Virus record (IMG/VR): IMGVR_UViG_3300030085_002432
Span: 1 to 26,803 of that record
DNA length: 26,803 bases
Reading direction: 5' to 3' (one strand)
DNA from: a virus
Part shown: one piece after another, positions 4,401 through 22,284 of the stretch
How the letters are laid out: each line of letters starts with the position of its first letter
Numbering within the stretch: the first letter of the stretch is position 1
Made by a program: the position numbers and the translations under genes
The notes under the pieces: model-generated
The model's input: only the letters and a program-made list of their open reading frames with translations
The model's database searches: none
Told to the model about the DNA's origin: nothing

Positions 4401-7400
4401 AGTCATTTGCAGAATCTGAATTAATTGGTAATGTAATCGTTAATGATGCTCAAAAGAGTATAACAAAGGAATCCATTACAAAACTATATGATGATATAAA
4501 CATTGGTATTGCTATTACCGATATTGTTTCTACTGCGACTACAACAGGTACTGGTATTGCTCATACATTGTTTACTGAAGTTGAGCATGGATTGAATAGA
4601 ATTACTTCTTTAAGTATTGATAGTCCTGGTTCTGGATATGGATCTGGTAGTGGTACAGTTCTTTATAATGCAACTTTAGTTGGATTGTCTGGTACTGTTT
4701 ACGGCACTAGTGCTACTTGTGTAGTTTCTATTGATGGTGCTGGATCCTTGACTGGTATTAAAGTCATGGATGGTGGTCAAGGATATTCTGTTGGAGACAA
4801 ATTAAAGGTTACTGGAACAGCAACAACAACTGGATTTTCAACTGCTACTGTAAATGTTGATTCAATTTATGATAATACTGGTGATGTAATCTACATCACT
4901 GAGATTGCAGATTCTCACAAGCAGTATAACACTCTCTATAGAATTACTGGTCTTACTACAACATATGATGACCAGATCTTTGTTGAATCTATGGAGACAA
5001 TATCTGGTATTAACACTCTTGGTGTTGGTATTACCGATCTTTTAAGTTCTAAGGCATATAACCTTGGACCTACAATCGGTATTTCATCTCTCTCGTATAA
5101 TAACATTACGGGTGTTGTAAGCTTTACCTCGGTGGATAATCATGGATTATCGGAAGACAACAAGATTCGACTTGCTGGTGCTAACTACTCTGGCTACAAT
5201 AAAGATCACATTATTACCAGAATTACAGGTCAGGATTCTTTTGAAGTTAATGTCGGAGTTGGAACAACAGTTCCAAATGCCTTAGGAACAATTAGAGCAT
5301 TTAGAAATGGATTCTCATCTAGAGGTGGTCTAATTAGTCTTTCTGACCAGAACATTGCTGGTAGACTTATTGATCAATATGGAGGTGTAACTGCACAATT
5401 AAGTGCTGCTATTACATCTGCGGATGCAACAACACTTTCTATTACTAATCTATCTGATTATGACTTAGAAATTGGTGATTATCTGCAGATCAATGAGGAA
5501 ATCTTCAGAATTAAAGAGTCTGTAGATGGAAACCCAATTACAGTCTTTAGAGGAGCACTTGGATCTGTAAGATCAACACATGCTTCTGGTGATGTTGTAA
5601 GAAGAATCAAACCAATTCCAATGGAATTGAGAAGAAATTCTATTATTCGTGCATCTGGCCATACTTTTGAGTACCTTGGATATGGTCCTGGTAACTATTC
5701 TACAGGTCTACCTGATAGACAAGATAGAGTTCTTGATCAAAGAGAAATCTTTATTGCACAGGCTAACAAACAGAATGGTGGTGTCGTTGCATTTACTGCA
5801 ATGGATAGTGATGGTAACTTCTTTATTGGTAATAAGAAACTTAACTCTACAACTGGTAGAGAGGATGTATTTGATGCTCCTATCATTACCATTACTGGTC
5901 AGGATGTTACCACTGGAAATGAAGCAGGATTTGATGCTCAAGTATCCTCTGAGATTACAATTACAAGATCTCTGAAGGTTGAGGGTGGTCCTGAGAAAAA
6001 TATTGTTTCTGAGTTTGATGGACCAACTATTTTCAATGAAAAGATTACATCTTCTTCTGATGATGGTGTAGAACTGAAATCCTTGTTCATGCAAGGTGAG
6101 AATAAGATCTCTAGAAAGTATACAAACTCTCCATCTAAACCAACTATTGCTGGAAACCCTGGAGACATTGTTCTTAATTCTCAACCAGACAGTGGCGGAA
6201 CTCTTGGATGGGTTTATACTGCTGATAATATTTGGGAAGACTTTGGTCTTGTTTCTGATCAAGGATTAGCCCTATCCAGAAACGTTGGACTCACAACTGA
6301 TGGTGCAAGTTATGCTGGTATTGCAACCAACATTAACTTCGTAGGAACTGGTATTTCTATCACTGCTGATGTTGATATTAATTCTGGAGTTGGAACAGTT
6401 TCACTCTACTCTAGTTCAGTTGAACCCGAGTTCTTGATTGTTGCTGGTGTTTCTACATTTAATGATGATGTAATTTGTAATGAAACACTATTCTCTCAAG
6501 GTGGATTTATTGCTACAACTGGTGTTTCTACATTCTTTGATGATGCTATCTTTAGAGAAGGTATTGCGGTATTTAATGGATTAGAAGCAGATACTGCTAC
6601 TATTTCTGGTACTATTGTTGCTACAGAAGTAAATACAACAACATTCTCTAATACATCCTCTGCCTTTGCTGGAAGTATTTCCGCTGGTAGCACGTCTGAT
6701 ACATCAAACAGAACAATTCAAGTTCTAAGTGGTGATAATACTAATGCTGGATTTGAAGCATACGGTGCTACTCAAGGTACTGGATACTTACAGATAGGAT
6801 CTAGAGCAGATAGGGGTGGTGGTATTTTCTATAATGGAAACCTTTCTCCATCATTTGCAATCGATGAAGAAGCAGACACAGTTTCTTATTACAGAAGATC
6901 TTCTGGTGTAAATTATGTAGTGTTCTCTCACCCATATAATAGTGATACGGTTACTTTTGAAGGAGATGTAAATCTCGGTAATCTAAGCGCATCCGATATA
7001 ACCGCTACTGGAAGTGTTTCTATCACTGGAAGTATTTCTACTGTAACAAATATCAATTCTATTGGTGTTTCTACACTACCTACGATCAATTCTGATACTG
7101 TTAATGTTAATCAGAAGTTGTCTATTCTTGCTCCTGTTGATCAAAATATAGTTTCTCTTGGATCTTCAAATATTATTGATTGTTCTCAAGGAAATTATTT
7201 CACAGTAAGTGTTGGAGCTGCAACTACATTTGAATTTACAAATGTTCCATCTGGAGTTGTTTATGGTGCAACTTTAGAAATTACTCACAGCTCTGGTGCA
7301 ATTACATGGCCTACTTCTGTTAAGTTCCCAGAAGATCAAGCCCCAATTTTACAGACGGGCAAGACACATCTCTTCATGTTTGTTTCTGATGACGGTGGAT

Positions 7401-7441
7401 CCAGATTTAGAGCAGCAGCACTGTTTGATTTTGAAAACTAA
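1418..7441 (+). CDS. Giant virion appendage/tail-fibre protein (2007 aa)
   Basis: The N-terminus (about residues 18-85) reads like the entry to a right-handed beta-helix of the pectin-lyase type: VDPSSLDSTDS, then ARPFKTIQRALMEAARF, then ILLYPGEHIVDN. Further beta-helix-like segments run to about residue 540 (for example SVYGTCGMHADGDKADGFKS). The middle is beta-rich with repeated modules that include Gly-rich GSGYGSGSG and GGQGYSVGDKLKV stretches near 1070-1130. Toward the C-terminus GVSTF repeats occur near 1676 and 1702, as in cyanophage fibre stalks. The last 100 residues form a compact tip ending RFRAAALFDFEN. No signal peptide or catalytic motif is evident. Size, modularity and a late promoter support a long tail fibre or baseplate-attached appendage. 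The exact T4 counterpart is unclear. Confidence 0.75.
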   Translation: MGLSRLDNFLKNTKGEILYVDPSSLDSTDSVENQGNSLARPFKTIQRALMEAARFSYQEGRENDRFGKTTILLYPGEHIVDNRPGFLTSEVSGTYFTRAGDTTEDLSPLDRNTNFDVLSENNILYKLNSVYGGVIIPRGTSIVGLDLRKTKIRPRYVPDPENDTIERSAIFRLTGACYMWQFSVFDADPNAIAYKDYTTNTFIPNFSHHKLTVFEYADGKNEVNIDDDLLTYESEQTDLDIYYQKIGDVYGSTSGREIEPETVEDPLDIEAKIDEYRIVGSRGASVGISSIRAGDGETSSSTITVTLSEELDGLDVDTPIQISGVSVNGYTGQFVVSEKNSATEIEYKAPTSPITPLPSTSDIAEAELTIVTDTVTSASPYVFNISLRSVYGTCGMHADGDKADGFKSMVVAQYTGIGLQKDNNAFIKYDDTTGTYEDSTTVANLFSDSRARYKPSYENYHIKASNNAVIQIVSVFGIGYAVHFLAESGGDLSITNSNSNFGAKALVARGFRAESFAKDDVGYITHVIPPQENVTNDVNVEFVSFDVDQTTGVGLTSRLYLYEQVVEAEKPNNVIDGYRVGAKENDEIKVDIINAGITSTFSAKIVMPGTETSYEKEFTVTKKSNGISNEITSNTFTFTETHSLANGESVRIISDTGHIPDGLINGQVYYAITTGLSGNQIQVAKTFNDALIGQEAVIYSNETSTVKVVSRVSDKSPGDTGHPLQWDSSRTQWYLSTSGESADNDLYGLIVNLTSDATPRSYFTRTPDTRGLLDRIYRLRYVIPKDNPTASRPPIEGYVLQESSGVTGSDVENEKYFSISSKVLNDSTELRNPRFIADATYAGTTATITTELPHNLTVGDTIRTRLIESTSNEDGTDSVGYNGIFFVATIPDKKTFTYTLATDPGTFTSDPNTRDSTLPYFTKYELPGTYVIYRSEEVQKYIKDEQDGIYHLILLSASNNPTVSPFNNDNYVQPVQFLYPQINKDNPKSDPDATKSFAESELIGNVIVNDAQKSITKESITKLYDDINIGIAITDIVSTATTTGTGIAHTLFTEVEHGLNRITSLSIDSPGSGYGSGSGTVLYNATLVGLSGTVYGTSATCVVSIDGAGSLTGIKVMDGGQGYSVGDKLKVTGTATTTGFSTATVNVDSIYDNTGDVIYITEIADSHKQYNTLYRITGLTTTYDDQIFVESMETISGINTLGVGITDLLSSKAYNLGPTIGISSLSYNNITGVVSFTSVDNHGLSEDNKIRLAGANYSGYNKDHIITRITGQDSFEVNVGVGTTVPNALGTIRAFRNGFSSRGGLISLSDQNIAGRLIDQYGGVTAQLSAAITSADATTLSITNLSDYDLEIGDYLQINEEIFRIKESVDGNPITVFRGALGSVRSTHASGDVVRRIKPIPMELRRNSIIRASGHTFEYLGYGPGNYSTGLPDRQDRVLDQREIFIAQANKQNGGVVAFTAMDSDGNFFIGNKKLNSTTGREDVFDAPIITITGQDVTTGNEAGFDAQVSSEITITRSLKVEGGPEKNIVSEFDGPTIFNEKITSSSDDGVELKSLFMQGENKISRKYTNSPSKPTIAGNPGDIVLNSQPDSGGTLGWVYTADNIWEDFGLVSDQGLALSRNVGLTTDGASYAGIATNINFVGTGISITADVDINSGVGTVSLYSSSVEPEFLIVAGVSTFNDDVICNETLFSQGGFIATTGVSTFFDDAIFREGIAVFNGLEADTATISGTIVATEVNTTTFSNTSSAFAGSISAGSTSDTSNRTIQVLSGDNTNAGFEAYGATQGTGYLQIGSRADRGGGIFYNGNLSPSFAIDEEADTVSYYRRSSGVNYVVFSHPYNSDTVTFEGDVNLGNLSASDITATGSVSITGSISTVTNINSIGVSTLPTINSDTVNVNQKLSILAPVDQNIVSLGSSNIIDCSQGNYFTVSVGAATTFEFTNVPSGVVYGATLEITHSSGAITWPTSVKFPEDQAPILQTGKTHLFMFVSDDGGSRFRAAALFDFEN

Positions 7442-8061: not shown

Positions 8062-8251
8062 GAAAAAGTTCGTTTGCGTAAGTCCTCTCTCTAAAAAAGC
8101 AAAAAATCGTTTTGCTAATGAGATGGACCTATTTCATTCTTGTGAAATAGAAACAGAAGAAAATAATATGCTTTTTCTAGCATCTTTGAATAGAAAATAC
8201 TTCTTTTGGGTTCCAAAAAGTGGTAATGAACACTGGAGAGTTGAAAAATGA
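8054..8251 (+). CDS. Hypothetical protein (65 aa)
   Basis: The ATG at 8054 overlaps the end of the HExxH gene by eight bases, and the stop overlaps the next start by four. The product is basic at the N-terminus (MSKKKFVCVSPLSKKAKNRF) and then carries acidic and aromatic stretches (NRKYFFWVPKSGNEHW). It has no membrane segment. It resembles small hypothetical proteins I recall from cyanomyoviruses; no function is recognised. Confidence 0.7.
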   Translation: MSKKKFVCVSPLSKKAKNRFANEMDLFHSCEIETEENNMLFLASLNRKYFFWVPKSGNEHWRVEK

Positions 8252-8988
8252 GTGACAACATTAATTACAGCGAACACCACAACACTAGAAAAAGAACATG
8301 GAATAATCTTCATCCCGACTATGTAATAGATCCCGATGAAGATGTTGTTGTTTCTATGTTTCATGTTCCAATAGCTCACGTAAAAGTGAAAGATTGGCCA
8401 CGTAAGAAAGCAAAATTACTAAAGATATATGAAAACACTTTATCAAACTTTAATAGAGATCATGATGATCCATTTGATGTAACAACAGATTTTCATTACA
8501 ATGAATATGGAGATAATGGTTCTGGAGCTGAAACTTCTTATAGAGAAACGGTTAATACTCTTTTAGATGAAGAACTTGCTACACTAGAAAATCTATTGCT
8601 TCCTTCAGATCGGTGTATTGATAATTTTACTGAAGCTCTTGGTTTAGAAGAAGGAGTCTATTTTAAAATAACTAATATTTGGTTTGAAAAATCTGAGAAG
8701 TATGGACAACATACTCCACATACTCATGGGTCTCGCGGTTTTAGTTGTGTTTTATTTGTTAATTATGATAAAGAAGAGCATAAACCAACAGTTTATATGA
8801 ATCCATTTACTAGTTATTTTTATGGAACTAATCCAGATTGGACTTGTCCTGAAGCTGAGGAAGGATCTTTGCTTTGTTGGCCAGCTCCCATCGTGCATTA
8901 TACTTACCCAAATGGTTCGGATGCGAATCGTTTAGTATTGTCTTGGAATATGTCTATTATTGATGCAAATGGAGGAGTTTTAGAATGA
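8248..8988 (+). CDS. 2OG-Fe(II) oxygenase-like protein
   Basis: This is a 246-residue protein whose C-terminal half looks like a double-stranded beta-helix. The expected strand order is present: NIWFEK (143-148), HTPHTHG with His158/His160, FSCVLFVNY (165-173), GSLLCWPAPIVHYTYPN with distal His217, and NRLVLSWNM ending the barrel with Arg228. This matches the HxH...H...R layout of small phage oxygenase-like proteins (Pfam 2OG-FeII_Oxy_5 type). The classical HxD is replaced by HxH, so activity needs testing. The N-terminal 120 residues are helical and unassigned. A GGAG precedes the start, and the next oxygenase gene overlaps by four bases. Confidence 0.65.
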   Translation: MSDNINYSEHHNTRKRTWNNLHPDYVIDPDEDVVVSMFHVPIAHVKVKDWPRKKAKLLKIYENTLSNFNRDHDDPFDVTTDFHYNEYGDNGSGAETSYRETVNTLLDEELATLENLLLPSDRCIDNFTEALGLEEGVYFKITNIWFEKSEKYGQHTPHTHGSRGFSCVLFVNYDKEEHKPTVYMNPFTSYFYGTNPDWTCPEAEEGSLLCWPAPIVHYTYPNGSDANRLVLSWNMSIIDANGGVLE

Positions 8989-9650
8989 TTAGTTTTGATA
9001 AAACCACACAATCTGGAATATGTTACTTTCCCCCTCCATTCGTATCTTTTCAAAAAGTCGAAAAACATGAAGAAATCAAAAAACAATTAACCCCTCAGAT
9101 TGAAGATCATCTTGAGAAAAATTCTGATATTATCAAAAATGAATGGGTCTGTGATGTAATATCATCATTTCATTTTGGTGAAAACGAATTTTTATTTCAA
9201 AATGAACTTTTGATTGAGGCAATTTGGAATGCATATAATAGTTGTCTTGATGGTTTAATATGCGATAATTGGATACCAGAAACTACTGATCTAAGATCAA
9301 CTACACTAGTTGATATGTGGTATAACATATATAAACCTGGTGGAAATCAAGAAATTCACACTCATAAACCTTTTGAATTTTCTGGAATTTATATATTAGA
9401 TGATACTGAAATTAACAATACACTATTTTGGTATGAAGCAAATATGTTTCCCTCAGGACTAAACTCCTATATGTGTTCTAACAATCCTTCATACAGTGAT
9501 ACGACGTTTGGTGAAGTTGGAGAGGGGTACATAGTTATTTTTCCTGGATCTTTGCCTCATTATGTTCCAACTGTAAAAAATAGGAAAACCTCCATCTCAT
9601 TTAACTTTGAGTGTAATGATACATGTAATACTCATGGTGGAGATGAATGA
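8985..9650 (+). CDS. 2OG-Fe(II) oxygenase-like protein (2OG-FeII_Oxy_5 type)
   Basis: This 221-residue protein shows the signature order WYNIYKPGGNQEIHTH (metal ligands His125/His127), FSGIYIL, GYIVIFPGSLPHYVP (distal His192) and RKTSISFNFEC (Arg200, the usual 2OG-binding position). A GGAGGAG precedes its ATG, inside the end of the previous oxygenase gene, with a 4-base overlap. The N-terminal 105 residues are helical. The family is abundant in cyanophages; proposed roles include protein hydroxylation, but the substrate is unknown. Confidence 0.75.
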   Translation: MISFDKTTQSGICYFPPPFVSFQKVEKHEEIKKQLTPQIEDHLEKNSDIIKNEWVCDVISSFHFGENEFLFQNELLIEAIWNAYNSCLDGLICDNWIPETTDLRSTTLVDMWYNIYKPGGNQEIHTHKPFEFSGIYILDDTEINNTLFWYEANMFPSGLNSYMCSNNPSYSDTTFGEVGEGYIVIFPGSLPHYVPTVKNRKTSISFNFECNDTCNTHGGDE

Positions 9651-10240
9651 AAAAGGTAAGAGTAGTAAAAAATTTTGTAAATTCTAATGAAATTTTACTA
9701 TTGAATAAATGGTCTTTGCAAAATTATAAAAATAATCCTGGCAACTATATGGATGCTAATATGGATTCAATTCGTCCCAGAACAAGATTTACTACTAGAT
9801 TAGAAAATTCTCGCAATCATCATAAAGAAAGGATTTCTATAGATTACCCGAAAGAAGCATATACTATTAGAGATAGAATTAAAAGTAAGTTTGGATTATG
9901 GAATTACGAATCTCCACCATCTTTTGTTGATGGTATTGTTAATGGTATTGGTTTTGGTGAAGGAGCTATTGATGAACATATAGATCCAGTATACTATCCA
10001 AACACTCATACTTTACATTGCAATGTAATCTCTCAGAAATCAGATTCTGGTGGTGTTACTATTATTGGTGGAGAAGAGTATGATGTAAATGTTGGAGATT
10101 TACTCTGTTATGTTGTTTCTGATGTAAAGCATAGAGTCACCGTTACTAAAGGAAAAACCAACAGAATTTTGTGGGTTTATGGATTCTGTATATCGTCCTA
10201 TAAAATGGAAGAAATATTTTATGAAAAATTTTCTATTTAA
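9647..10240 (+). CDS. 2OG-Fe(II) oxygenase-like protein with HxD...H...R
   Basis: This 197-residue protein belongs to a different branch from its two upstream neighbours. It has a full facial triad: His111-Ile-Asp113 within DEHIDPVYY, His162 in SDVKHRV, and Arg173 in KTNRILW for 2OG binding. The strand containing THTLHCNVIS and the turn NVGDLLCYV fit the beta-helix core of AlkB/prolyl-hydroxylase-like enzymes. The N-terminus (MKKVRVVKNFVNSNEILLLN) resembles the opening of AlkB-like and P4H-like folds. It overlaps the previous gene by four bases. A nucleic-acid or protein substrate is possible. Confidence 0.75.
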   Translation: MKKVRVVKNFVNSNEILLLNKWSLQNYKNNPGNYMDANMDSIRPRTRFTTRLENSRNHHKERISIDYPKEAYTIRDRIKSKFGLWNYESPPSFVDGIVNGIGFGEGAIDEHIDPVYYPNTHTLHCNVISQKSDSGGVTIIGGEEYDVNVGDLLCYVVSDVKHRVTVTKGKTNRILWVYGFCISSYKMEEIFYEKFSI

Positions 10241-10457: not shown

Positions 10458-10808
10458 ATGCCCGAAGAAAACGTAAATCTTTCATTATCTAATGATGGAA
10501 GTACCGCAGAAGTTAACCTTTCTTTTGATGGAAATGTTGATATTGCAACCAGTAGTCCTCTTCCTACTTCCGAATTAAGAGAATCCATGAAAGAATTTGT
10601 GGATATTGTATCGAAAGTAGTTGAGTCAGATATGGCTGATAAAGACGCTTTTGTCTTAATCCGAAAATCTTGGAGAGAACTCAGACAAGAAAAACTAAAA
10701 TTTTACCCAGTAAAACAAAAAAAGAAAAAGAATAAACTTAAATTGAAGAATAAGAAAAAAGGAATTATTAAAGGCAAAAAGAGAAAAAACAAAAAACAAA
10801 AAAAGTAA
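10458..10808 (+). CDS. Hypothetical protein with Lys-rich C-terminal tail
   Basis: A strong AAGGAG precedes ATG 10458. Residues 1-85 form an acidic, probably folded part with a beta-like start (VNLSLSNDGSTAEVNLSF) and a helical segment (ELRESMKEFVDIVSKVV). Residues 86-116 are an extreme basic tail in which 19 of 31 residues are Lys. The tail could bind nucleic acid or a negatively charged surface. The A-run at 10717-10723 places A_AAA_AAG in the phase of a -1 slippery site; slippage would stop translation three codons later and remove the tail. No family is recognised. The late context suggests a virion or assembly role. Confidence 0.65.
   Translation: MPEENVNLSLSNDGSTAEVNLSFDGNVDIATSSPLPTSELRESMKEFVDIVSKVVESDMADKDAFVLIRKSWRELRQEKLKFYPVKQKKKKNKLKLKNKKKGIIKGKKRKNKKQKK
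10718..10724 (+). promoter_or_regulatory. Possible -1 ribosomal slippery site A_AAA_AAG
   Basis: In-frame codons CAA AAA AAG give the heptamer A AAA AAG in the correct phase for -1 frameshifting. The -1 frame then reads GAA AAA GAA TAA, giving a product without the Lys-rich tail, as in the short DnaX form. No obvious downstream stem-loop or upstream Shine-Dalgarno stimulator was found. Confidence 0.25.
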
Positions 10809-10826: not shown

Positions 10827-11507
10827 ATGAACATCTGGGAACACAATGATTTGTCTAATATCCAAGTAGAGGATTTTGAAGACTCAAAAATATACTGGAT
10901 GGATGATTTTTATAAGTATCCAGATTTAGTTTATGAAGAAATAACCAGAGAGGAACCTCCTCTCTGGAAATATGGTGAAGGTTGGAATACTGAAGGAAGT
11001 CAAAACAACATTCGTTTTATTGATGCCAGATGGAGTGAAGAAAGAGAGGGATTAGATCTTCCATATCAATCCCTCAGTAAAATTTTTAATCAACCCTCTA
11101 GTGATGAAGGTTTTTTAGTTACAAATCACACTAGATTTTTTACTGATGAGCAATCTTTAGAATTTAATAATTATAAAGATAATTTCTGGTGGCCTCATAC
11201 GGATAGTGGATATAATGCGATTGTTTATCTAAACAAATCTGAGGATGGATCTGAATATGGAACAAACTTATATAAAGTAAAGGATGAAGAACTTCTTCCG
11301 ACTGAAGGTGAACCAGAACATGCAAATCCCTGGCATTCTAAAGATAACTGGGATCTAATAGCAGCATTTAAGTCAAAATATAATAGAATGGTTGCTTTTA
11401 ATGGATTTATATATTATCATGGAATGAGTGTAGATTCTGATAAATGGTTTCATGAAACTAGAATAAATCAAGTTATGTTTTTTGATGACGAAAATTTTGA
11501 GAGATGA
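10827..11507 (+). CDS. 2OG-Fe(II) oxygenase-like protein (DUF6445-like)
   Basis: This 226-residue protein has an intact triad: WWPHTDSGYNAIVYLN gives His124 and Asp126, GFIYYHGMS gives His198, and HETRINQVMFF gives Arg212. The N-terminal WMDDFYKYPDLVYEEI is typical of DUF6445-type prolyl-hydroxylase relatives, where a short 'DFY..P..V' helix opens the fold. There is no good Shine-Dalgarno apart from GTAGG. It stands between the Lys-rich protein and another oxygenase-like gene. Substrate unknown. Confidence 0.75.
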   Translation: MNIWEHNDLSNIQVEDFEDSKIYWMDDFYKYPDLVYEEITREEPPLWKYGEGWNTEGSQNNIRFIDARWSEEREGLDLPYQSLSKIFNQPSSDEGFLVTNHTRFFTDEQSLEFNNYKDNFWWPHTDSGYNAIVYLNKSEDGSEYGTNLYKVKDEELLPTEGEPEHANPWHSKDNWDLIAAFKSKYNRMVAFNGFIYYHGMSVDSDKWFHETRINQVMFFDDENFER

Positions 11508-11516
11508 GGAGTTTGT

Positions 11517-12182
11517 ATGGCGTATAATTTAGATCATTATCATGGAGACGCTGTTACTCCAGTAGAGTCTGAAAATATAGAATTTGAAGACTTTCAAAAT
11601 GAAATTATTTTCTATAATAAGGTTTGGACGGCATTTCCAGCAGACGTTGATAATGAAGAAATAATTAAAGATTGTTATGATGCTCAAATACATCTTCCTG
11701 GAACACAAAGATCTAATGCTGGTGGATGGCAGAGTGAAGTTAGACCTCTAACAGAATCAGTTTTTAGAGCAACTCTTCCTCATGTTTATGATCTTGGCGT
11801 TAGAGCTGTAGAATTCTCTAATAAATGTTCTGAAGAACTTGGTTCGGATATAGAGTATAATTTAGATAGTGCTCATTTGTGGGTCAATATCAATAATCAG
11901 AATGACTATAATGTTATACATTCGCATCCACATTGTGATCTTATTGTATTATATTACGCTATCCATGAAAAAAGTATGGGAAATCTGCATTTAGTTAGAG
12001 CAGATGGATCATGTCATGTTTCTACTTTTATGGGTGTGAATGATTCTCATGAATATATTGTAGAACCAGAAGAGGGAATGTTTGTCGCTTTTCCTCCGCA
12101 TCTTTTACATTACGTTGATCCAAATCAAACAGGAAACGATAGAATTTCTATATCTTTCAACATGGCTGCTGTGAATGGATAA
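11517..12182 (+). CDS. 2OG-Fe(II) oxygenase-like protein (2OG-FeII_Oxy_5 type)
   Basis: GAGGAG precedes ATG 11517. The 221-residue product has the typical block order: LWVNINNQNDYNVIHSHPH (His135/His137), LIVLYYAIHE, an EGMFVAFPPHLLHYV block with distal His198, and DRISISFNM with Arg209. It is a closer paralogue of the 8985-9650 product than of its immediate upstream neighbour. It is the last oxygenase before the two adhesin-like genes, and a late promoter lies just downstream. Hydroxylation of tail proteins is a speculative role. Confidence 0.75.
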   Translation: MAYNLDHYHGDAVTPVESENIEFEDFQNEIIFYNKVWTAFPADVDNEEIIKDCYDAQIHLPGTQRSNAGGWQSEVRPLTESVFRATLPHVYDLGVRAVEFSNKCSEELGSDIEYNLDSAHLWVNINNQNDYNVIHSHPHCDLIVLYYAIHEKSMGNLHLVRADGSCHVSTFMGVNDSHEYIVEPEEGMFVAFPPHLLHYVDPNQTGNDRISISFNMAAVNG

Positions 12183-12233: not shown

Positions 12234-12767
12234 ATGTCGATCCTACAAGCTGACGGTATACAATTTGGTTCCGACTCTACCACTTTGGATTCATTATATG
12301 GAATTATACCCCAAAATTCTGTAACCGTATTTTTTGAATCTGCTGCTCCAACTGGTTGGACTAAGTTAACAACACACGATAATAAAGCACTTAGAGTTGT
12401 TACTGGAACTGGTGGAGGATTTGGTTCTGGTGGAACTTCTGGTGTCGGAGGAAATCCTTTTACCGATACTTTTAGATCTGTTCCTATTACTGGAACTGTA
12501 ACTACTTCTGGAACTGTAGGTGGACATACTCTGAGTATTACAGAATTACCTTCTCACTCTCACGCTGCTGGTTCCGCTATTGGAATTAACCCTCAACCTG
12601 GATCTGGAGTGAACGGAAGAGATACAAATACTTCAGGACCAGTTACAGGTTCTGTTGGTGGTGGTTCAGCACATACTCACCCATTTACGGGATCTCCTTC
12701 TCCATGGACGGCAAGTATTGATATGAATGTTAAATATATTGATGTTATTATATGTCGTTTTAACTGA
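12234..12767 (+). CDS. Tail-collar/short-fibre-type adhesin (177 aa)
   Basis: The N-terminus MSILQADGIQF leads into GIIPQNSVTVFFESAAPTGW (about 23-42), the typical start of a phage tail-collar or gp12-like domain. ALRVVTGTGGGFGSGG follows. Two His pairs, HSH (108-110) and HTH (147-149), resemble the metal-binding HxH motifs that knit trimeric receptor-binding tips. The protein ends with SIDMNVKYIDVIICRFN. A Gly/Ser-rich linker of about 35 residues lies between the His pairs. It is a tandem paralogue of the next gene. Host attachment is the likely role. Confidence 0.75.
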   Translation: MSILQADGIQFGSDSTTLDSLYGIIPQNSVTVFFESAAPTGWTKLTTHDNKALRVVTGTGGGFGSGGTSGVGGNPFTDTFRSVPITGTVTTSGTVGGHTLSITELPSHSHAAGSAIGINPQPGSGVNGRDTNTSGPVTGSVGGGSAHTHPFTGSPSPWTASIDMNVKYIDVIICRFN

Positions 12768-12788: not shown

Positions 12789-14333
12789 ATGTCTATTTTA
12801 CAAGCAGATGGCATCCAATTCAGTGATGGATCAGTCCTTAACAGTTTTTATGGGATAATTCCACAAAGTAAAAAACTAGTCTTTTACCAAGCTGCTGCTC
12901 CTGTTGGTTGGTCGAAAACTACTACAGCTAACGATGATGCATCGATGCTACAAGATCAGAGTATTGATAATGTTAGTATTAGATTAGTTAGTGGATCATC
13001 TGGTGGGCAAGTCAACACGCTCTTCGGCACCATCGGTGATTTTACAACAGCAATGCCTGCGACTCCTAAGTCGTTTGATCCATTTCCTGTATCACGAGTC
13101 ACACAGTTTCAAGGTGCTGTAGAACCTCATACCTTGATTACTGATGAAATACCTTCTCATAGTCATGAGATAGGAAGTAGAGAAGTTGATGATGGACCTC
13201 CAGCTCCTACAGCATATCAAGCAACTTTACAAAGATCATATGCAGATAGATCTCCAACAAATCTTCAAACTGCATATCAACAACCAGTTGTATATCAACA
13301 ACCTGTTGTATATCAACAACCTTCTGCATATCAGCAACCAGCTACTAGACGAGCAACTCAACCCGTACAGAATCCAAGCACCTATCAGCAACCTACAAAT
13401 CCAAACCAACGAATAACAAGCCAACAACCCGATTCAACTAACCAAAGAGTTAATGTAACACAAAACCGTAATGAGAGAGTAAGGCAAAGAAATCCAGTAG
13501 CAAACTCAGCTAGAACTAGAAATAGTACACGAGTAAATAGACGAGCCTCACAACCAGTAAATAGAAGAAATAGAAATAATGCTCGTCAAAGAAATCCAAG
13601 ACCACAACCAAATCCACAAAGCCGTAATACTAGACAAACACGTAGTGAGAGGGATCGGGCAAGAAATCGTAATAGACGTGGCCGTAGAAGAAATAGAAGA
13701 AGAGTAAGAAGACGCCAAAACCGACAAGCTCCAGTAAGTCGTAATGTTCAGGTAACTAATAATGTTAGAAGAAGGGTTAATGTTAGACGCAGGCAGCCTA
13801 ATTCAACACAAAATCAGCAACCAAATACAACACCAGTCAACAGACAAAATCCTGTTAATGTGAACAGTAGAGTTCGGATTAGAACCCCTCAACAAAGAGG
13901 AGCACAAGTACAGCAACCAAATCCAGTCAACAGACAGACATCTATTCAAAATCCTAATCCAAATCCAATTCAAAATACAACACCATTAAGAACACCATCA
14001 ACCGCACAACAACCAAATAATACCCGAGTCACTGCTAATACTCGCGTAAATGCAACTAAAAGAGTTAATGCTAATACAAATCAACCAGTAACTGTTCCAA
14101 GTAATGTTCAAAATCCTGTAGTTAATTACAGTCCATATCCACAACCATTGATTGTTCCTGGAGATACTATAAGAGGTGATAATACTAATGCTCCAGATAC
14201 AGCACTGGTTGGTTCAAATCAAGCTCACAGTCACCCATTTACTGGAGGAGATATAGCTCCTCAACTTTCAGCTCCTTCTGGACTTAGTTTTCAGGTTCAG
14301 TATATTGATGTTATTATTTGCAGTTTAGACTAA
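12789..14333 (+). CDS. Tail-collar adhesin paralogue with large basic low-complexity insertion
   Basis: The ends match the previous protein: MSILQADGIQF...GIIPQSKKLVFYQAAAPVGW, then IPSHSHE (His124/His126) and, at the C-terminus, AHSHPFTGG (His480/His482) and VQYIDVIICSLD. Between the two His pairs, at about residues 140-460, is an insertion unlike any usual fibre. It starts with YQQP repeats (163-184, 199-202). It continues as Arg/Asn/Gln/Pro-rich sequence with an Arg core near 284-335. The insertion is almost certainly disordered and very basic. The reading frame is open for about 960 bases, which argues for selection. A GGAGGAG precedes the start. A role in binding anionic host surface polymers is inference. 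Confidence 0.75.
   Translation: MSILQADGIQFSDGSVLNSFYGIIPQSKKLVFYQAAAPVGWSKTTTANDDASMLQDQSIDNVSIRLVSGSSGGQVNTLFGTIGDFTTAMPATPKSFDPFPVSRVTQFQGAVEPHTLITDEIPSHSHEIGSREVDDGPPAPTAYQATLQRSYADRSPTNLQTAYQQPVVYQQPVVYQQPSAYQQPATRRATQPVQNPSTYQQPTNPNQRITSQQPDSTNQRVNVTQNRNERVRQRNPVANSARTRNSTRVNRRASQPVNRRNRNNARQRNPRPQPNPQSRNTRQTRSERDRARNRNRRGRRRNRRRVRRRQNRQAPVSRNVQVTNNVRRRVNVRRRQPNSTQNQQPNTTPVNRQNPVNVNSRVRIRTPQQRGAQVQQPNPVNRQTSIQNPNPNPIQNTTPLRTPSTAQQPNNTRVTANTRVNATKRVNANTNQPVTVPSNVQNPVVNYSPYPQPLIVPGDTIRGDNTNAPDTALVGSNQAHSHPFTGGDIAPQLSAPSGLSFQVQYIDVIICSLD
13269..13340 (+). repeat. Four in-frame 18-base repeats encoding xxYQQP
   Basis: Four consecutive 18-base units encode TAYQQP, VVYQQP, VVYQQP and SAYQQP. 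The two central units are nearly identical at DNA level, which suggests recent tandem duplication. A further YQQP lies at residues 199-202. Confidence 0.8.
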
Positions 14334-14367: not shown

Positions 14368-14733
14368 ATGTCTAGTGGAAAATGGTGCCCATTGATTCGT
14401 AAAAATTGTGTAGAACATAAGTGTGCATTTTATACACATGTTATGGGACACAATCCTAATACAGGACAACAAGTAGATGAATGGGCATGTTCTATTCAAT
14501 TTCTTCCAATGCTTTTGATTGAAAACTCTCAACAACAACGAGGAACTGGTGCTGCCGTAGAATCATTTAGAAATGAAATGGTAAAGGCAAATCAATCAAA
14601 CATAAATATTCTTGAAGCAGCTGCGAACATGTTTTCAACAACGCAGCAAGTTCAAGTTACTGATCAAACATCTGAACAAAAACTAATTACTGATTCTATA
14701 AATACAAACACAAGTCTTGGAGATAATCGATAA
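14368..14733 (+). CDS. Cys-rich conserved phage protein (121 aa)
   Basis: TGAGG precedes ATG 14368. Residues 1-45 carry Cys7, Cys14, His17, Cys19, His24, His28 and Cys41 (CPLIRKNCVEHKCAFY, then WACSIQF). This is a likely zinc or Fe-S site. The rest is a helical, Gln/Asn-rich segment (ENSQQQRGTGAAVESFRNE) with no membrane span. The same pattern is familiar from hypothetical proteins in T4-like cyanophages. Its stop shares a base with the start of the coiled-coil gene, so the two are likely translated together. Confidence 0.7.
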   Translation: MSSGKWCPLIRKNCVEHKCAFYTHVMGHNPNTGQQVDEWACSIQFLPMLLIENSQQQRGTGAAVESFRNEMVKANQSNINILEAAANMFSTTQQVQVTDQTSEQKLITDSINTNTSLGDNR

Positions 14734-16226: not shown

Positions 16227-17672
16227 ATGAATAAACAATTATTAGAACAAAACTTTCTTGTTCTTCGTGAATTTATACCTCAAGAAGACGCAAAACGACT
16301 TGGAATAAAGTTCAAAGAAGACTGCGAAAAAGTAAATTTTCCTGGAGATACTCAAGCAGAAAACTCACATAGTGTCTATAATTATAAAGATGCACTAGAA
16401 CTTCTGTGTAATTCTACTAATAGTGTTTCACACATTATAGAAGAACCTGTCCTACCAACTTATACTTATGGTAGAATTTATAAAGAAAATTCTGTATTGA
16501 AAAAGCATACAGATAGACCTGCTTGTGAAGTATCTGTAACTCTTCATTTAGATGGTGATCATGTATGGCCAATTTGGGTTAAAAATCAATCTGGAAGATC
16601 GCATTGCGTAGAACTTAACCCAGGAGACGCTTTATTATATCTTGGTTGCATAGCTCCTCATTGGAGAGATGAGTTTGATGGTACATGGTATGCTCAATTT
16701 TTTATGCACTATGTTAGAGCTAATGGACCAGCGGCAGAATGTTACTTTGATGTAGAACAAATAGAAGGAGTAAGAAAAAATCAAATTATTGATTCTTTAA
16801 TTGATGAATCAGTAAATAAAACACCTATTCCTAGGCACTTAACTAATAGATACCTTAATGGTATACTTTTAAGTAACCGTGATACTAGAGAAATACCTAA
16901 TACAGAACAGATTACAGAACAAATTGATCATGAAGAGGACGAAGAAATGAATTTCACAGAAGAAAAAAGTATTTTACAAATTCTTGAAGAAAAGAAAAAT
17001 AGAATTAGAGGTAACTCTAATCAAGTAGAAGAGAGTAAACCAATAGAATCTGCTTTTGTTAGATTTGATAAAGGAGTAGAACTAAAGAAAGAATCTAATT
17101 CATCTTCTAAAAAACTTGATGATTACATTCGTGTTTATGAAAATGCACTATCAGACAGAGTTTGTGATGATATTCTGAATGAATATATTACTACAGATGA
17201 CTGGAGTCATGCAATGACGGGTGGTGGACTAGATCAAAATGCAAGAAATTGTGATGTGATTGGTACATCGAATAGAGAGATTATGGATAGAAACTTTAAT
17301 TATCGTAAAATGCTTGACGAAAAAATATATAATTGCGTCAATTCTTGCATGAAAAAATATGAATCAGATTGTGTAAGTAAAGAAGGATTATCTATATCTC
17401 AAGACACTGGATATGAGTTGTTGAGATATAGAGAGGGACAGTTTTATGTGCAACACACAGATCATTTCAAACAAAATCCTAGAGTTCTTTCGTGTAGCAT
17501 TTGTTTGAATGATGACTATGAAGGTGGTGAATTTGCTTTCTTCAATAGATCAATCAAGATAAAGCCTAAGAAAGGAACTGTTATCATGTTTCCTTCTAGT
17601 TTTATGTTCCCTCATGAAGTTATGCCCATTATTAAAGGAAATAGATACGCAATTATTACCTGGTTAGTATGA
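16227..17672 (+). CDS. Double-domain 2OG-Fe(II) oxygenase
   Basis: This 481-residue protein carries two oxygenase-like domains. In the N-terminal domain (about 1-175) LKKHTDRPACEVSVTLHLDG gives His94/Asp96, and a GDALLYLG turn leads to His145 in APHWRD. In the C-terminal P4H-like domain (about 297-481) GQFYVQHTDHF gives His410/Asp412, GGEFAFFNRSIKIKPKKG is the core, FPHEVM gives His463 and GNRYAIITW gives Arg473. The linker (about 210-295) is acidic then basic and low in complexity. An internal Met241 could start a separate C-terminal product. No Shine-Dalgarno is seen at the first ATG. The next oxygenase gene overlaps by four bases. Confidence 0.75.
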   Translation: MNKQLLEQNFLVLREFIPQEDAKRLGIKFKEDCEKVNFPGDTQAENSHSVYNYKDALELLCNSTNSVSHIIEEPVLPTYTYGRIYKENSVLKKHTDRPACEVSVTLHLDGDHVWPIWVKNQSGRSHCVELNPGDALLYLGCIAPHWRDEFDGTWYAQFFMHYVRANGPAAECYFDVEQIEGVRKNQIIDSLIDESVNKTPIPRHLTNRYLNGILLSNRDTREIPNTEQITEQIDHEEDEEMNFTEEKSILQILEEKKNRIRGNSNQVEESKPIESAFVRFDKGVELKKESNSSSKKLDDYIRVYENALSDRVCDDILNEYITTDDWSHAMTGGGLDQNARNCDVIGTSNREIMDRNFNYRKMLDEKIYNCVNSCMKKYESDCVSKEGLSISQDTGYELLRYREGQFYVQHTDHFKQNPRVLSCSICLNDDYEGGEFAFFNRSIKIKPKKGTVIMFPSSFMFPHEVMPIIKGNRYAIITWLV

Positions 17673-18421
17673 ACTATCAAGAGGAATATACTGATTTCAT
17701 CGGCATTTATAGAAATGTTTTTACTCAAAAATCAACTAATGATTTAATTTCATATTTTGATAAATTAGAGGAGGATAAACATTCGGCAGTTTGGATTTCT
17801 GATAGCATGTATGGTGGAGGATGTAATAGACTCGATACTGCTGTAGCAGTAGAGCAGGTTAGTGAAAAGTGGTACGATATAATAAACGAAAGTGTTTATG
17901 AATGCTTGAAAAAATATAGAAAAAAATATTTTTCAATGAATTCAATGGACAGTCTCAAACTTACATCTCCTTTTATCAAAGTTCAGAAAACTTATCCTCA
18001 AGGGGGTTATCATATATGGCATTATGAAGTCGATGGTATAGACAATATAGCTCGTAGTTTGGCTTGGATTTTATACTTAAATGATGTCCCTGAAGGAGAG
18101 GGTGAAACTGAGTTTCTTTTTCAAGGTTTAAGAATACAACCTAAACAAGGGACACTTATTATGTGGCCAGCTCAATTTACACACACTCATAGAGGAAATC
18201 CTGTCTATAATTGTGTAAAATATATTGCTACTGGATGGATTGAATATGCGGATGTTCATGAAGGAATTGGTCCATGGAGAATAGATGAGGAGACCGGATA
18301 TTGTTATTATATGGATAATCCTCCTTTTGAAGATGAAGATACTTGCGAAGATGACGATGATGATGTAATATGTGATATGAACAAACCTAAACGTTACAAA
18401 CGACTTTCTGATCTAACTTAA
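17669..18421 (+). CDS. 2OG-Fe(II) oxygenase-like protein (P4H-like, HxE variant)
   Basis: This 250-residue protein is coupled to the upstream double oxygenase by an ATGA overlap. The core is FIKVQKTYPQGGYHIWHYEV, in which His118-Tyr-Glu120 replaces the common HxD. Strand SLAWILYLND (130-139), LRIQPKQGTLIMWPAQFTHTH with distal His172/His174, and a Lys184/Tyr185 region in place of the usual Arg follow. It ends in an acidic DDDDD-containing tail and a basic terminus. The acidic-residue swap means the enzyme could be active or merely a fold relative. Confidence 0.7.
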   Translation: MNYQEEYTDFIGIYRNVFTQKSTNDLISYFDKLEEDKHSAVWISDSMYGGGCNRLDTAVAVEQVSEKWYDIINESVYECLKKYRKKYFSMNSMDSLKLTSPFIKVQKTYPQGGYHIWHYEVDGIDNIARSLAWILYLNDVPEGEGETEFLFQGLRIQPKQGTLIMWPAQFTHTHRGNPVYNCVKYIATGWIEYADVHEGIGPWRIDEETGYCYYMDNPPFEDEDTCEDDDDDVICDMNKPKRYKRLSDLT

Positions 18422-20110: not shown

Positions 20111-21313
20111 ATGACTCTGACGCTTCGCCCGCACCAAGATCGCATCGTTGCTCGGATGCAAACTTACAAAAAAGGTCAGATCATTGTCCCTACTGGTGGT
20201 GGTAAAACTCTCACCATGATTGTTGATACTCAGCGCCGTCTGGATTCTATCAACAACGGCACCACGACTGTTGTTGTTGCTCCTCGGATTCTTCTTGCTG
20301 AGCAACTTTGCAGTGAGTTTATGGAGGTTATTGATCCTAACAATAGCGATCCTTATCTGCATGTGATGCACGTTCACAGTGGTGAAACACACTACACCAG
20401 CACAACTAAAGCAGACAGAATCAATGTGTTTGCTAATTGTGCTCGCAATATGGGCGAGAACTGCATCATCTTTACCACCTACAATTCTCTCCATCGTGTG
20501 ATGGAAGCAGATATTGAGGTCAATGCTATTTACTTTGACGAAGCACATAACAGTGTAAAGAAGAACTTTTTCCCTGCTACTGAGTTCTTTTTGGAGAACG
20601 CAGATCGTGCATATTGTTATACTGCAACTCCGAAACATTCTCTTGCTGCTACCAAACCAGGCATGAATTGGTCTGTTTATGGTCAGGTTCTGATCAATGT
20701 TCCTGCTCCTGAGTTGGTCGAAGGTGGTTACATTCTTCCTCCCAAAGTTGTAGTCAAGCAGCTGCCTATGATTAAAGGTCGTAAGGTTGTATTTGCTGAT
20801 GATTGTAATAACCTGCTGGAGACCATTGATGATAACAACATCAAAAAAACTCTGATCTGTGCTCGCACAACAAAGCAGATTATCACTCTTCTTTCTCAGT
20901 CTAAGTTCTGCCTCGAACTTGCTCAGCGTGGTTATTCTTGGATGACGATCACATCTAAGACTGGTGCAATTATTGACGGTCAGAAAGTCAATCGTGAGCA
21001 ATTTTTCGAGACTCTGAACGCTTGGGGCAAAGATCCTGAGAAAAAATTTGTTGTTCTGCATCACTCTATTCTGTCCGAGGGTATCAACGTCAGTGGACTG
21101 GAAGCAGTTGTTTTCATGCGGAACATGGATTACATCGGAATCAGTCAATCCATCGGTCGTGTGATCCGCCTGGGTGGATCTGAGAAGACGTTTGGATTGG
21201 TTTGCATCCCAACTTATGATAAAGTTGGTATCAGCACTGCCCGTAAAGTTCAGGCAGTTGTTGATGTCGTTTTCAATCAAGGTCAACCCGCTATCAGTGA
21301 GATTCGTCGATGA
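20111..21313 (+). CDS. SF2 DEAH helicase
   Basis: This 400-residue protein shows SF2 helicase motifs in order: LRPHQ near the N-terminus (Q-like motif), Walker A PTGGGKT (27-33), VVVAPRILLAEQL (motif Ia), FTTYNSL, DEAH (143-146), TATP (171-174), then domain 2 with TLICARTTKQ, LSEGINVSGLEAV (motif V) and SQSIGRVIRLGG (motif VI). The set matches UvsW/Res-type DNA translocases. No nuclease domain is present and the length is modest. T4 UvsW is a possible role model for recombination or origin-R-loop processing. The 4-base overlap with a methyltransferase gene also recalls the Res partner of restriction systems, though without the endonuclease. Confidence 0.85.
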   Translation: MTLTLRPHQDRIVARMQTYKKGQIIVPTGGGKTLTMIVDTQRRLDSINNGTTTVVVAPRILLAEQLCSEFMEVIDPNNSDPYLHVMHVHSGETHYTSTTKADRINVFANCARNMGENCIIFTTYNSLHRVMEADIEVNAIYFDEAHNSVKKNFFPATEFFLENADRAYCYTATPKHSLAATKPGMNWSVYGQVLINVPAPELVEGGYILPPKVVVKQLPMIKGRKVVFADDCNNLLETIDDNNIKKTLICARTTKQIITLLSQSKFCLELAQRGYSWMTITSKTGAIIDGQKVNREQFFETLNAWGKDPEKKFVVLHHSILSEGINVSGLEAVVFMRNMDYIGISQSIGRVIRLGGSEKTFGLVCIPTYDKVGISTARKVQAVVDVVFNQGQPAISEIRR

Positions 21314-22284
21314 GTGTAACTATCCTGCAAAAACCTGTTGAGGAGATTGATTCTATAGACCAGACATTTGATCTGGTTTATATGGATCCCCCGTTCGGAT
21401 TGCAGCGGGATTTTACCATGCAAGAGGAAGATGGTCAGAAGAAAGGATTCTCAGATAAATGGGAATCTTTCGATGATTATACAGATTGGTACGCAAATGT
21501 AATAAACTCATGCTGGGCTAAACTTAACAAGAATGGATGGATGTATGCCCACAATAACTTCATGGGCAATGCACTTGTGATGTCTAAAATAGATCGAAAG
21601 ATCAGAGATTCTTTCTATACAAATATCTCTTGGAAGAGATCTGGACCGAAGAATAACATCAAGAATGGTTGGGGTAACATCGTGGATTCAATCCTGGTGT
21701 TTAGAAAAGGCAGTCCATATTTTGAGGTTGAGTATACCTCACTTGATCCTGTCTATGCAGCTAATAGTTTCAAGAATAAGGATGACGTTGGTTACTATGC
21801 TCTGGCGAAAGTAACGGGGGAAAAGAGTAGACCATGCGCTAGATTTGAATACAAAGGTTACAATCCTGTTTATGGGTTCCGTATAACAAGGGAAAAACTC
21901 GAAGAACTGGACGCGCAAGACCTGCTGCACTACGGCACAAACAATATCTACAAAAAAATCTATTCTCATGAGTCTAAAGGTGTTCCAGTGCAAAATCTAT
22001 GGGATGATGTATACTTTATCAGCAGAAGTGAGAAGAATAAGCGTAAATATCCCACACAAAAACCCCTGAAATTGTTACAACGTATCATAAAAGCATCATC
22101 TGAGTCGGGCGGATGGGTTCTGGATCCTTTCTGCGGATCAGGAACAACAGCAATCGCGGCAATGGAACTGGGTCGGAATTGCATCACAATGGACGTGAAT
22201 CCCGATGCTATCACCATCGCACAAGAGACAATCGATGAGCTGTCTACCAAATCGACAAATGCCCTCGCTGAGGCATTATATTGA
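21310..22284 (+). CDS. DNA N-methyltransferase, beta class (N4-C or N6-A)
   Basis: Motif IV, DPPF at residues 26-29, comes first, then a long variable region, KYPTQKP (246-252), and motif I DPFCGSGTT (272-280) near the C-terminus followed by GRNCITMDVNPDAITIA. This order is typical of beta-class DNA N-methyltransferases. The 324-residue length is normal, with the target-recognition region between about 30 and 240. It starts in the stop of the helicase gene (ATGA). No partner endonuclease is seen. The likely role is to shield phage DNA from host restriction or to mark it; the specificity cannot be read from sequence. Confidence 0.88.
   Translation: MSVTILQKPVEEIDSIDQTFDLVYMDPPFGLQRDFTMQEEDGQKKGFSDKWESFDDYTDWYANVINSCWAKLNKNGWMYAHNNFMGNALVMSKIDRKIRDSFYTNISWKRSGPKNNIKNGWGNIVDSILVFRKGSPYFEVEYTSLDPVYAANSFKNKDDVGYYALAKVTGEKSRPCARFEYKGYNPVYGFRITREKLEELDAQDLLHYGTNNIYKKIYSHESKGVPVQNLWDDVYFISRSEKNKRKYPTQKPLKLLQRIIKASSESGGWVLDPFCGSGTTAIAAMELGRNCITMDVNPDAITIAQETIDELSTKSTNALAEALY

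Follow-up and report, generated by a model that had tools for sequence, protein, structure and literature searches.

A long arginine-rich hexapeptide-repeat loop in a putative cyanophage fibre-tip protein encoded beside 2OG-Fe(II) oxygenase genes

The long-loop gene and its neighbourhood

The window analysed here comprises the 26,803 nucleotides of the IMG/VR virus record IMGVR_UViG_3300030085_002432. Its positions 12789-14333 on the (+) strand hold an ORF of 514 amino acids, as had been described in a previous reading of the letters alone (the sequence-only reading). The neighbouring gene at 12234-12767 (+) encodes a collar paralogue of 177 amino acids with a short loop, and the counterpart of this paralogue in Synechococcus phage S-SCSM1, SSCSM1_244, bears a virion-protein mark. 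That the ends of the long protein match this paralogue was borne out, both for residues 1-52 (62%, E 1e-18) and for the C-terminal 57 residues (46%, E 4e-10). The same reading had the loop between two HxH motifs growing from about 35 to over 350 residues, and the measured distances are 36 residues in the neighbour and 353 in the 514-residue protein (aa 124-126 to aa 480-482). Alignment with the paralogue and the S-SCSM1 proteins, together with collar-profile matches, places the N-terminal half of a collar-type tip domain, including the first HxH, at 12789-13166 (+; aa 1-126), and the C-terminal half, with the second HxH (aa 480-482) and a YIDVI-C end, was assigned by alignments to 14226-14333 (+). 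A collar profile made from the N-terminal part of the ORF and its paralogues matched the tail fibre protein 9qgo (E 1e-6) over the collar including the HxH regions, and the solved tail-fibre chain 9nxk weakly (E 0.015); the Pfam Collar family PF07484 had no match in the window's record or in the long-loop protein. Judged by these alignments, the gene product is a collar-type fibre-tip protein.

Between them lies the loop of 353 residues (13167-14225, +; aa 127-479), whose hexad repeat was recognised by lag identity and a hexad model. The tandem YQQP units pointed out previously are located at aa 163-184 (13275-13340, +), where the sequence YQQPVV YQQPVV YQQPSA YQQP represents the most regular hexads. 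The Arg-richest core, which we propose as a distal turn region, lies at aa 285-312 (13641-13724, +), close to the loop midpoint at aa 303, and a 31-residue window of Arg content reaches its maximum at 0.47 of the loop. The loop contains 59 Arg, 53 Asn, 48 Gln and 41 Pro residues, one Lys and 12 Asp or Glu, so that its description as an extremely basic tract was justified. Cys, Trp, Met and His are absent from it, and Phe, Tyr and Trp together make up only 9 of the 353 residues. The preference for Arg over Lys cannot be attributed to base composition, because the Arg to Lys ratio is 59:1 in the loop compared with 219 Arg and 240 Lys in the other counted proteins of the window, which has a GC content of 37%.

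The long loop is not an assembly artefact. This view is supported by two findings: the gene recurs on a contig from another assembly (L001/L086), where a single R to Q substitution sets it apart, and SSCSM1_245 of S-SCSM1, at a locus of matching gene order, has an Arg-rich loop that differs from the window's.

The collar pair is flanked by genes for 2OG-Fe(II) oxygenases, all on the (+) strand. Upstream, such proteins are encoded at 8248-8988 (PF13759, E 9e-9), 8985-9650 (PF13759, E 3e-10) and, directly in front of the pair, 11517-12182 (PF13759, E 3e-15). Two further genes in this stretch are probable members of the group. The one at 9647-10240 showed no family above the cut-off and occupies the position of SSCSM1_241/242, which are annotated as 2OG proteins; the one at 10827-11507 matched phrog_1644 and phrog_274 and likewise occupies the position of S-SCSM1 2OG genes. 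PHROG 1644 bears the name 'minor coat protein', which may be misleading for 10827-11507, in whose sequence a WPHTD...H pattern is seen. Downstream, a protein with a C-terminal 2OG-Fe(II) oxygenase domain is encoded at 16227-17672 (PF13640, E 2.5e-19) and another oxygenase at 17669-18421 (PF13640, E 4e-11). Between the upstream oxygenase genes, positions 10458-10808 encode a protein of 116 amino acids with a Lys-rich tail, KQKKKKNKLKLKNKKKGIIKGKKRKNKKQKK, which contrasts with the near absence of Lys from the Arg loop close by. Elsewhere in the window we noted a Mom-like DNA modification gene (772-1383, PF25680), a tail fibre protein of 2007 amino acids (1418-7441; phrog_529, phrog_4527) and an N6/N4 DNA methyltransferase (21310-22284, PF01555).

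Relatives of the long-loop protein

IMG/VR was scanned with the 514-residue protein, the conserved downstream gene, the collar alignment and two relatives as seeds. This yielded more than 25 distinct long-loop proteins with HxH-to-HxH gaps of 275-381 residues and net charges of +36 to +80. The length comparison among orthologues that had been proposed thus excludes the possibility that all relatives are short and the window's loop an error of assembly. In 50,697 phage records, a long-loop relative was present in the cultured phage S-SCSM1 alone (one record, in duplicate). Its locus has the order found in the window, namely four 2OG oxygenases, the short collar, the long collar and a small Cys-containing protein, the last being followed in both phages by a large hypothetical protein and then by two 2OG oxygenases. 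SSCSM1_245, annotated as a 'short tail fiber protein', shares with the window's protein the gene order, the collar ends, the hexad repeat and 2OG genes on both sides, but differs in having a loop of 284 residues with 77 Arg, no Lys and more Phe, Tyr and Trp. A published description of its repeat was not found in our literature searches.

At least 138 viral contigs encode relatives of the small Cys-containing protein CPLI..CVEHKC (14368-14733, +; S-SCSM1 246), whose gene lies directly behind the collar genes in window-type and S-SCSM1-type phages. In S-B43, this gene is located beside a fibre gene on the opposite strand. From its distribution, the protein is possibly a conserved partner in the fibre or its assembly.

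Short-loop collar proteins from cyanophages and their relatives, such as the 'baseplate protein' of S-SCSM2R and the 177-residue neighbour, have the collar fold and the two HxH motifs in common with the long ones, and many of them occupy the same slot ahead of the CPLI..CVEHKC gene. However, their loops are Gly/Ser-rich and measure only 32-69 residues, and few 2OG genes are found nearby. The one exception in length is a collar protein with many HxH motifs (L002, 658-1245), whose 108-residue loop contains an HxH series and resembles a gp37-type iron needle. The L002 collar gene adjoins a CPLI gene on the opposite strand, and a PDB search with this multi-HxH relative gave no match. The same collar slot may thus host different needle chemistries, as the comparison of L002 with the hexad loops would suggest.

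In a collar tree built without the loops, 18 of 20 long-loop proteins fall into one supported clade (98/89), and the group around this clade also includes the short paralogues that these phages have in the first slot. The two others, L087 and L091, were placed without resolution, and a single origin is possible. The parsimonious reading of this tree is that a short collar gene was duplicated in this lineage and that the loop of one copy would have grown thereafter. A scan of a genome collection returned three distant matches only, L169 and two from Elusimicrobia. L169 is not a long-loop relative, as 45 residues separate its HxH motifs; it is a Hyphomicrobiales MAG contig, possibly a prophage, with a short-loop collar protein from position 3527. 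Matches of L087 in Streptococcus and Curvibacter phages were discarded as weak, the Curvibacter match being antisense to an unrelated gene.

Periodicity and constraint of the loop

The sequence-only reading had described the loop as disorder. This description does not hold at the level of the sequence, since the loop is a highly significant six-residue repeat that is conserved across clades. Its consensus, x-[NS]-[YF]-[RQ]-[QVN]-P, is degenerate and keeps its phase almost without interruption between the two HxH motifs, and the window's loop follows it throughout with a handful of phase breaks. Self-identity of this loop at lags 6, 12, 18, 24 and 30 exceeded that of shuffled sequences with z-values of 6.7, 5.5, 4.9, 3.3 and 5.0. 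Nearly all relatives behave in the same manner at multiples of 6 from 6 to 30; the mean z-values for 14 representatives were 6.2, 5.3, 5.6, 3.7 and 3.5, compared with at most 0.2 at odd lags. A cyclic profile gained 521 log-units at period 6, and 65, 90 and 366 at periods 5, 7 and 8, respectively; larger multiples of 6 gain more, but it should be noted that they carry more parameters. The signal is not confined to the YQQP units, as residues 211-460 alone gave a z-value of 4.3 at lag 6, although the signal of the Arg-rich core alone is weak (z = 1.7). When all ORFs of the retrieved loci were compared, the combined repeat signal was limited to these loops and to collagen-like period-3 repeats, except for a few low scores.

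The loops of the window's clade and the S-SCSM1 clade barely align, yet they share the hexad. A hexad model trained solely on the S-SCSM1 clade recognised the window's loop with a z-value of 7.4 over shuffles, and the reverse training recognised the S-SCSM1-type loop L101 with a z-value of 14.3; over all transfers between clades, the z-values range from 2.9 to 16.9. By this measure, the loops of all long-loop relatives are one hexapeptide repeat. As in hexapeptide beta-helices, a six-residue periodicity extends over many units; the beta-helix consensus [LIV]-[GAED]-x-x-[STAV]-x is not followed by the loop, Pfam gave no match, and neither did a PDB search with the loop sequence.

Constraint on the loop differs between the clades. 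In the S-SCSM1 clade, the loop measures exactly 284 residues in all 11 distinct complete proteins, compared with several indels in the N-collar, and its identity is 0.80 versus 0.665 for the N-collar, with a dN/dS of 0.32. In a wider alignment of this family, one hexad position forms a ladder of Arg residues, being Arg in 36 of 48 places (20 invariant) with a mean conservation of 0.92 compared with 0.67-0.79 at the other positions. A separate lineage of three proteins (L087, L172 and L173) has loops of exactly 365 residues in all three, which are about 82% alike. In the window's clade, loop lengths are 353-361 among the five closest proteins and 353-381 across the clade, and the loop shows 54% identity overall, a dN/dS of 0.54 and mosaic patches. 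Here the middle of the loop accepts indels and diverges: among four of these five closest proteins, identity falls symmetrically from about 0.84 at the loop ends to about 0.33 mid-loop, with a best centre at 0.49. Alignment error could add to this drop, but the nearly colinear L007 and L008 show the same pattern. The suggestion that the loop could be a variable region under diversifying expansion therefore captures the diverging mid-loop of the window's clade, but does not apply to the S-SCSM1 clade, where the loop is invariant in length, more conserved than the N-collar (80% versus 66%) and under a dN/dS of 0.32. In each of the 25 proteins measured, the centroid of the Arg residues falls at 0.47-0.53 of the loop, although the Arg peak is off-centre in L020, L091 and L024.

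The phages of L007 and L008 are otherwise near-identical. Within codons 207-370 of their genes (L007:3448-4962 and L008:3439-4962), synonymous and nonsynonymous differences are clustered in patches around a conserved Arg-rich centre, a pattern that suggests mosaic exchange. A diversity-generating retroelement target was rejected as an explanation, since the differences affect all base pairs without adenine bias.

A proposed needle and its possible modification

The view that no phage fibre tip is known with such an insertion is contradicted by phage T4, where the collar-fold domain D10 of gp37 accommodates D11, an inserted domain of 128 residues with a stem, a tip and seven iron ions (PMC6957217). 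The kind of insertion is therefore already known, and it is the size and the chemistry that are new. Like gp37, the window's protein consists of a collar half, an HxH, a long insert, another HxH and a second collar half, with 353 residues between the paralogue-aligned HxH motifs, and in both proteins the insert would serve distal tip recognition. The differences are that the insert has about 353 instead of 128 residues and consists of Arg/Pro hexads without an internal HxH ladder. Indeed, no series of HxH iron sites is present, His being absent from the window's loop and from those of most relatives apart from the two bounding HxH motifs, and the searches run gave no sequence match to gp37. 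We therefore do not file the protein as a gp37 needle, but suggest that it works like one.

We propose that the product of the gene is a trimeric adhesin at the fibre tip of a Kyanoviridae-like cyanophage, and that its collar domain would be split by a needle of roughly 60 hexapeptide units, as D10 is by D11. Each chain would emerge from the collar behind the first HxH and extend away from it as a regular repeat of beta type; close to the Arg-rich middle it would reverse direction and lead back to the second HxH. The result would be a long, rigid, arginine-studded spike that could engage anionic surface polymers of the host. We give this reading as a whole a probability of roughly 55%. Since the two ends of the insert have to meet neighbouring strands again, a needle that runs out and back offers the simplest path, and a distal tip would agree with the variation around the loop midpoint. 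The Arg core and the variability are centred mid-loop in several clades, but against this reading stand the members with an off-centre Arg peak, and a direct test of mirror symmetry in loop composition was weak. An argument from strand parity, which placed Arg on the outer and HxH on the inner side, was not kept, as the offset differs between clades.

The principal alternative is that the loop forms an intrinsically disordered polycationic brush, its hexads being a product of ancestral repeat expansion and composition rather than of a fold. The few bulky hydrophobic residues would suit disorder, though equally a polar fibre, and the extreme Arg/Asn/Gln/Pro bias points in the direction of a brush, as do the divergence and indels at the loop centre in the window's clade. 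AlphaFold2 yielded no structure either, with monomer pLDDT values of 32.5 for the window's protein (20 aligned sequences) and 37.5 for an S-SCSM1-type protein (13); however, the low confidence extended to the collar, which has solved relatives, and the result for the loop therefore speaks neither way. We consider such a brush unlikely. An invariant length, 284 residues in one clade and 365 in another, would be unusual for a free brush, the Arg register is likewise kept in two clades with Arg held at one hexad position, the repeat keeps its phase between clades whose loops can no longer be aligned, and in the S-SCSM1 clade the loop is under purifying selection (dN/dS 0.32) with an identity above that of the collar. 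Thus, of the previously suggested polycationic brush for anionic cell-surface polymers, the polymer target is plausible, but plain disorder does not agree with a hexad repeat across clades. A structured repeat could also be compacted on the collar, as a beta-solenoid or a PPII-type bundle, instead of extending as a needle. Hexad and 18-residue periodicities, both observed here, resemble those of three-sided beta-helices. However, no enrichment was seen at lag 3 (mean z 0.2), which led us to reject a collagen or PPII-type period. Moreover, a solenoid of about 20 coils running one way would fail to bring the loop ends to neighbouring HxH strands, and the midpoint-centred variation agrees with a distal turn. 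A compacted form therefore seems to us distinctly improbable.

It is further part of our proposal that the protein is located in the virion. S-SCSM1 virions have been analysed by MS, with 45 phage proteins found (PMC9602691), and in GenBank a virion-protein mark is given to the short SSCSM1_244 but not to the long SSCSM1_245. The long-loop protein might accordingly act in the host, for example by binding nucleic acid or an envelope polymer, or be a product of the assembly stage. Yet only 6 of the 83 predicted tryptic peptides of SSCSM1_245 are 7-30 residues long, the loop being cut into 77 pieces, and hydroxylated peptides would be missed, so that its absence from the list is weak evidence. 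Moreover, both collar halves and the HxH pair are kept, and the gene occupies the second collar slot of a fibre locus. A role outside the virion is thus very unlikely in our judgement.

We also examined how the 2OG-Fe(II) oxygenase genes are distributed with respect to the collar pair, counting Pfam PF13640 and PF13759 matches over whole contigs and within 6 kb of the pair. The latter distance contained a mean of 4.7 such genes in 18 long-loop contigs compared with 1.2 in 19 short-loop contigs, whereas their density elsewhere on the contigs was equal (0.027 and 0.029 per kb, respectively). A search seeded with the window's 2OG proteins found 5-7 of them in all 39 long-loop loci of at least 8 kb, some of which overlap, versus 0-2 in 37 short-loop loci. 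This link is a correlation among related phages, and because of their relatedness a p-value calculated from contig counts would overstate independence. As a weaker inference than the needle, the neighbouring oxygenases might hydroxylate Pro, Arg or Asn of the hexad repeat. We put forward only tentatively that the needle is an Arg/Pro/Asn structure hydroxylated after translation by some five to seven flanking phage enzymes. The known precedent is the prolyl 4-hydroxylase of chlorovirus PBCV-1, which acts on Pro-containing peptides in vitro, although the search for hydroxyproline in the virion proteins of PBCV-1 was negative (PMC7019647). It has in common with our proposal a virus-encoded 2OG-type hydroxylase and Pro-containing peptide substrates, but virus, enzyme and substrate are different ones. 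The hexad repeat and its linkage to the 2OG genes are the new points of this study; literature searches on phage hexapeptide repeats, Arg-rich cyanophage fibres and proline hydroxylation of fibres returned no account of them.

These findings turn an apparent low-complexity disorder into a defined and conserved fibre repeat with a testable geometry, and with S-SCSM1 a cultured phage carrying a long-loop gene exists. This phage carries 24 2OG-Fe(II) oxygenases (PMC9602691). The 2OG oxygenases of cyanophages have so far been interpreted as serving the nitrogen metabolism of the host, but their clustering beside this one adhesin suggests the modification of a virion protein instead, which gives these numerous enzymes a concrete substrate hypothesis. 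If it is true, many cyanophage 2OG oxygenases that are as yet unexplained would have a function, and a phage adhesin would resemble hydroxylated structural or wet-adhesive proteins in its chemistry.
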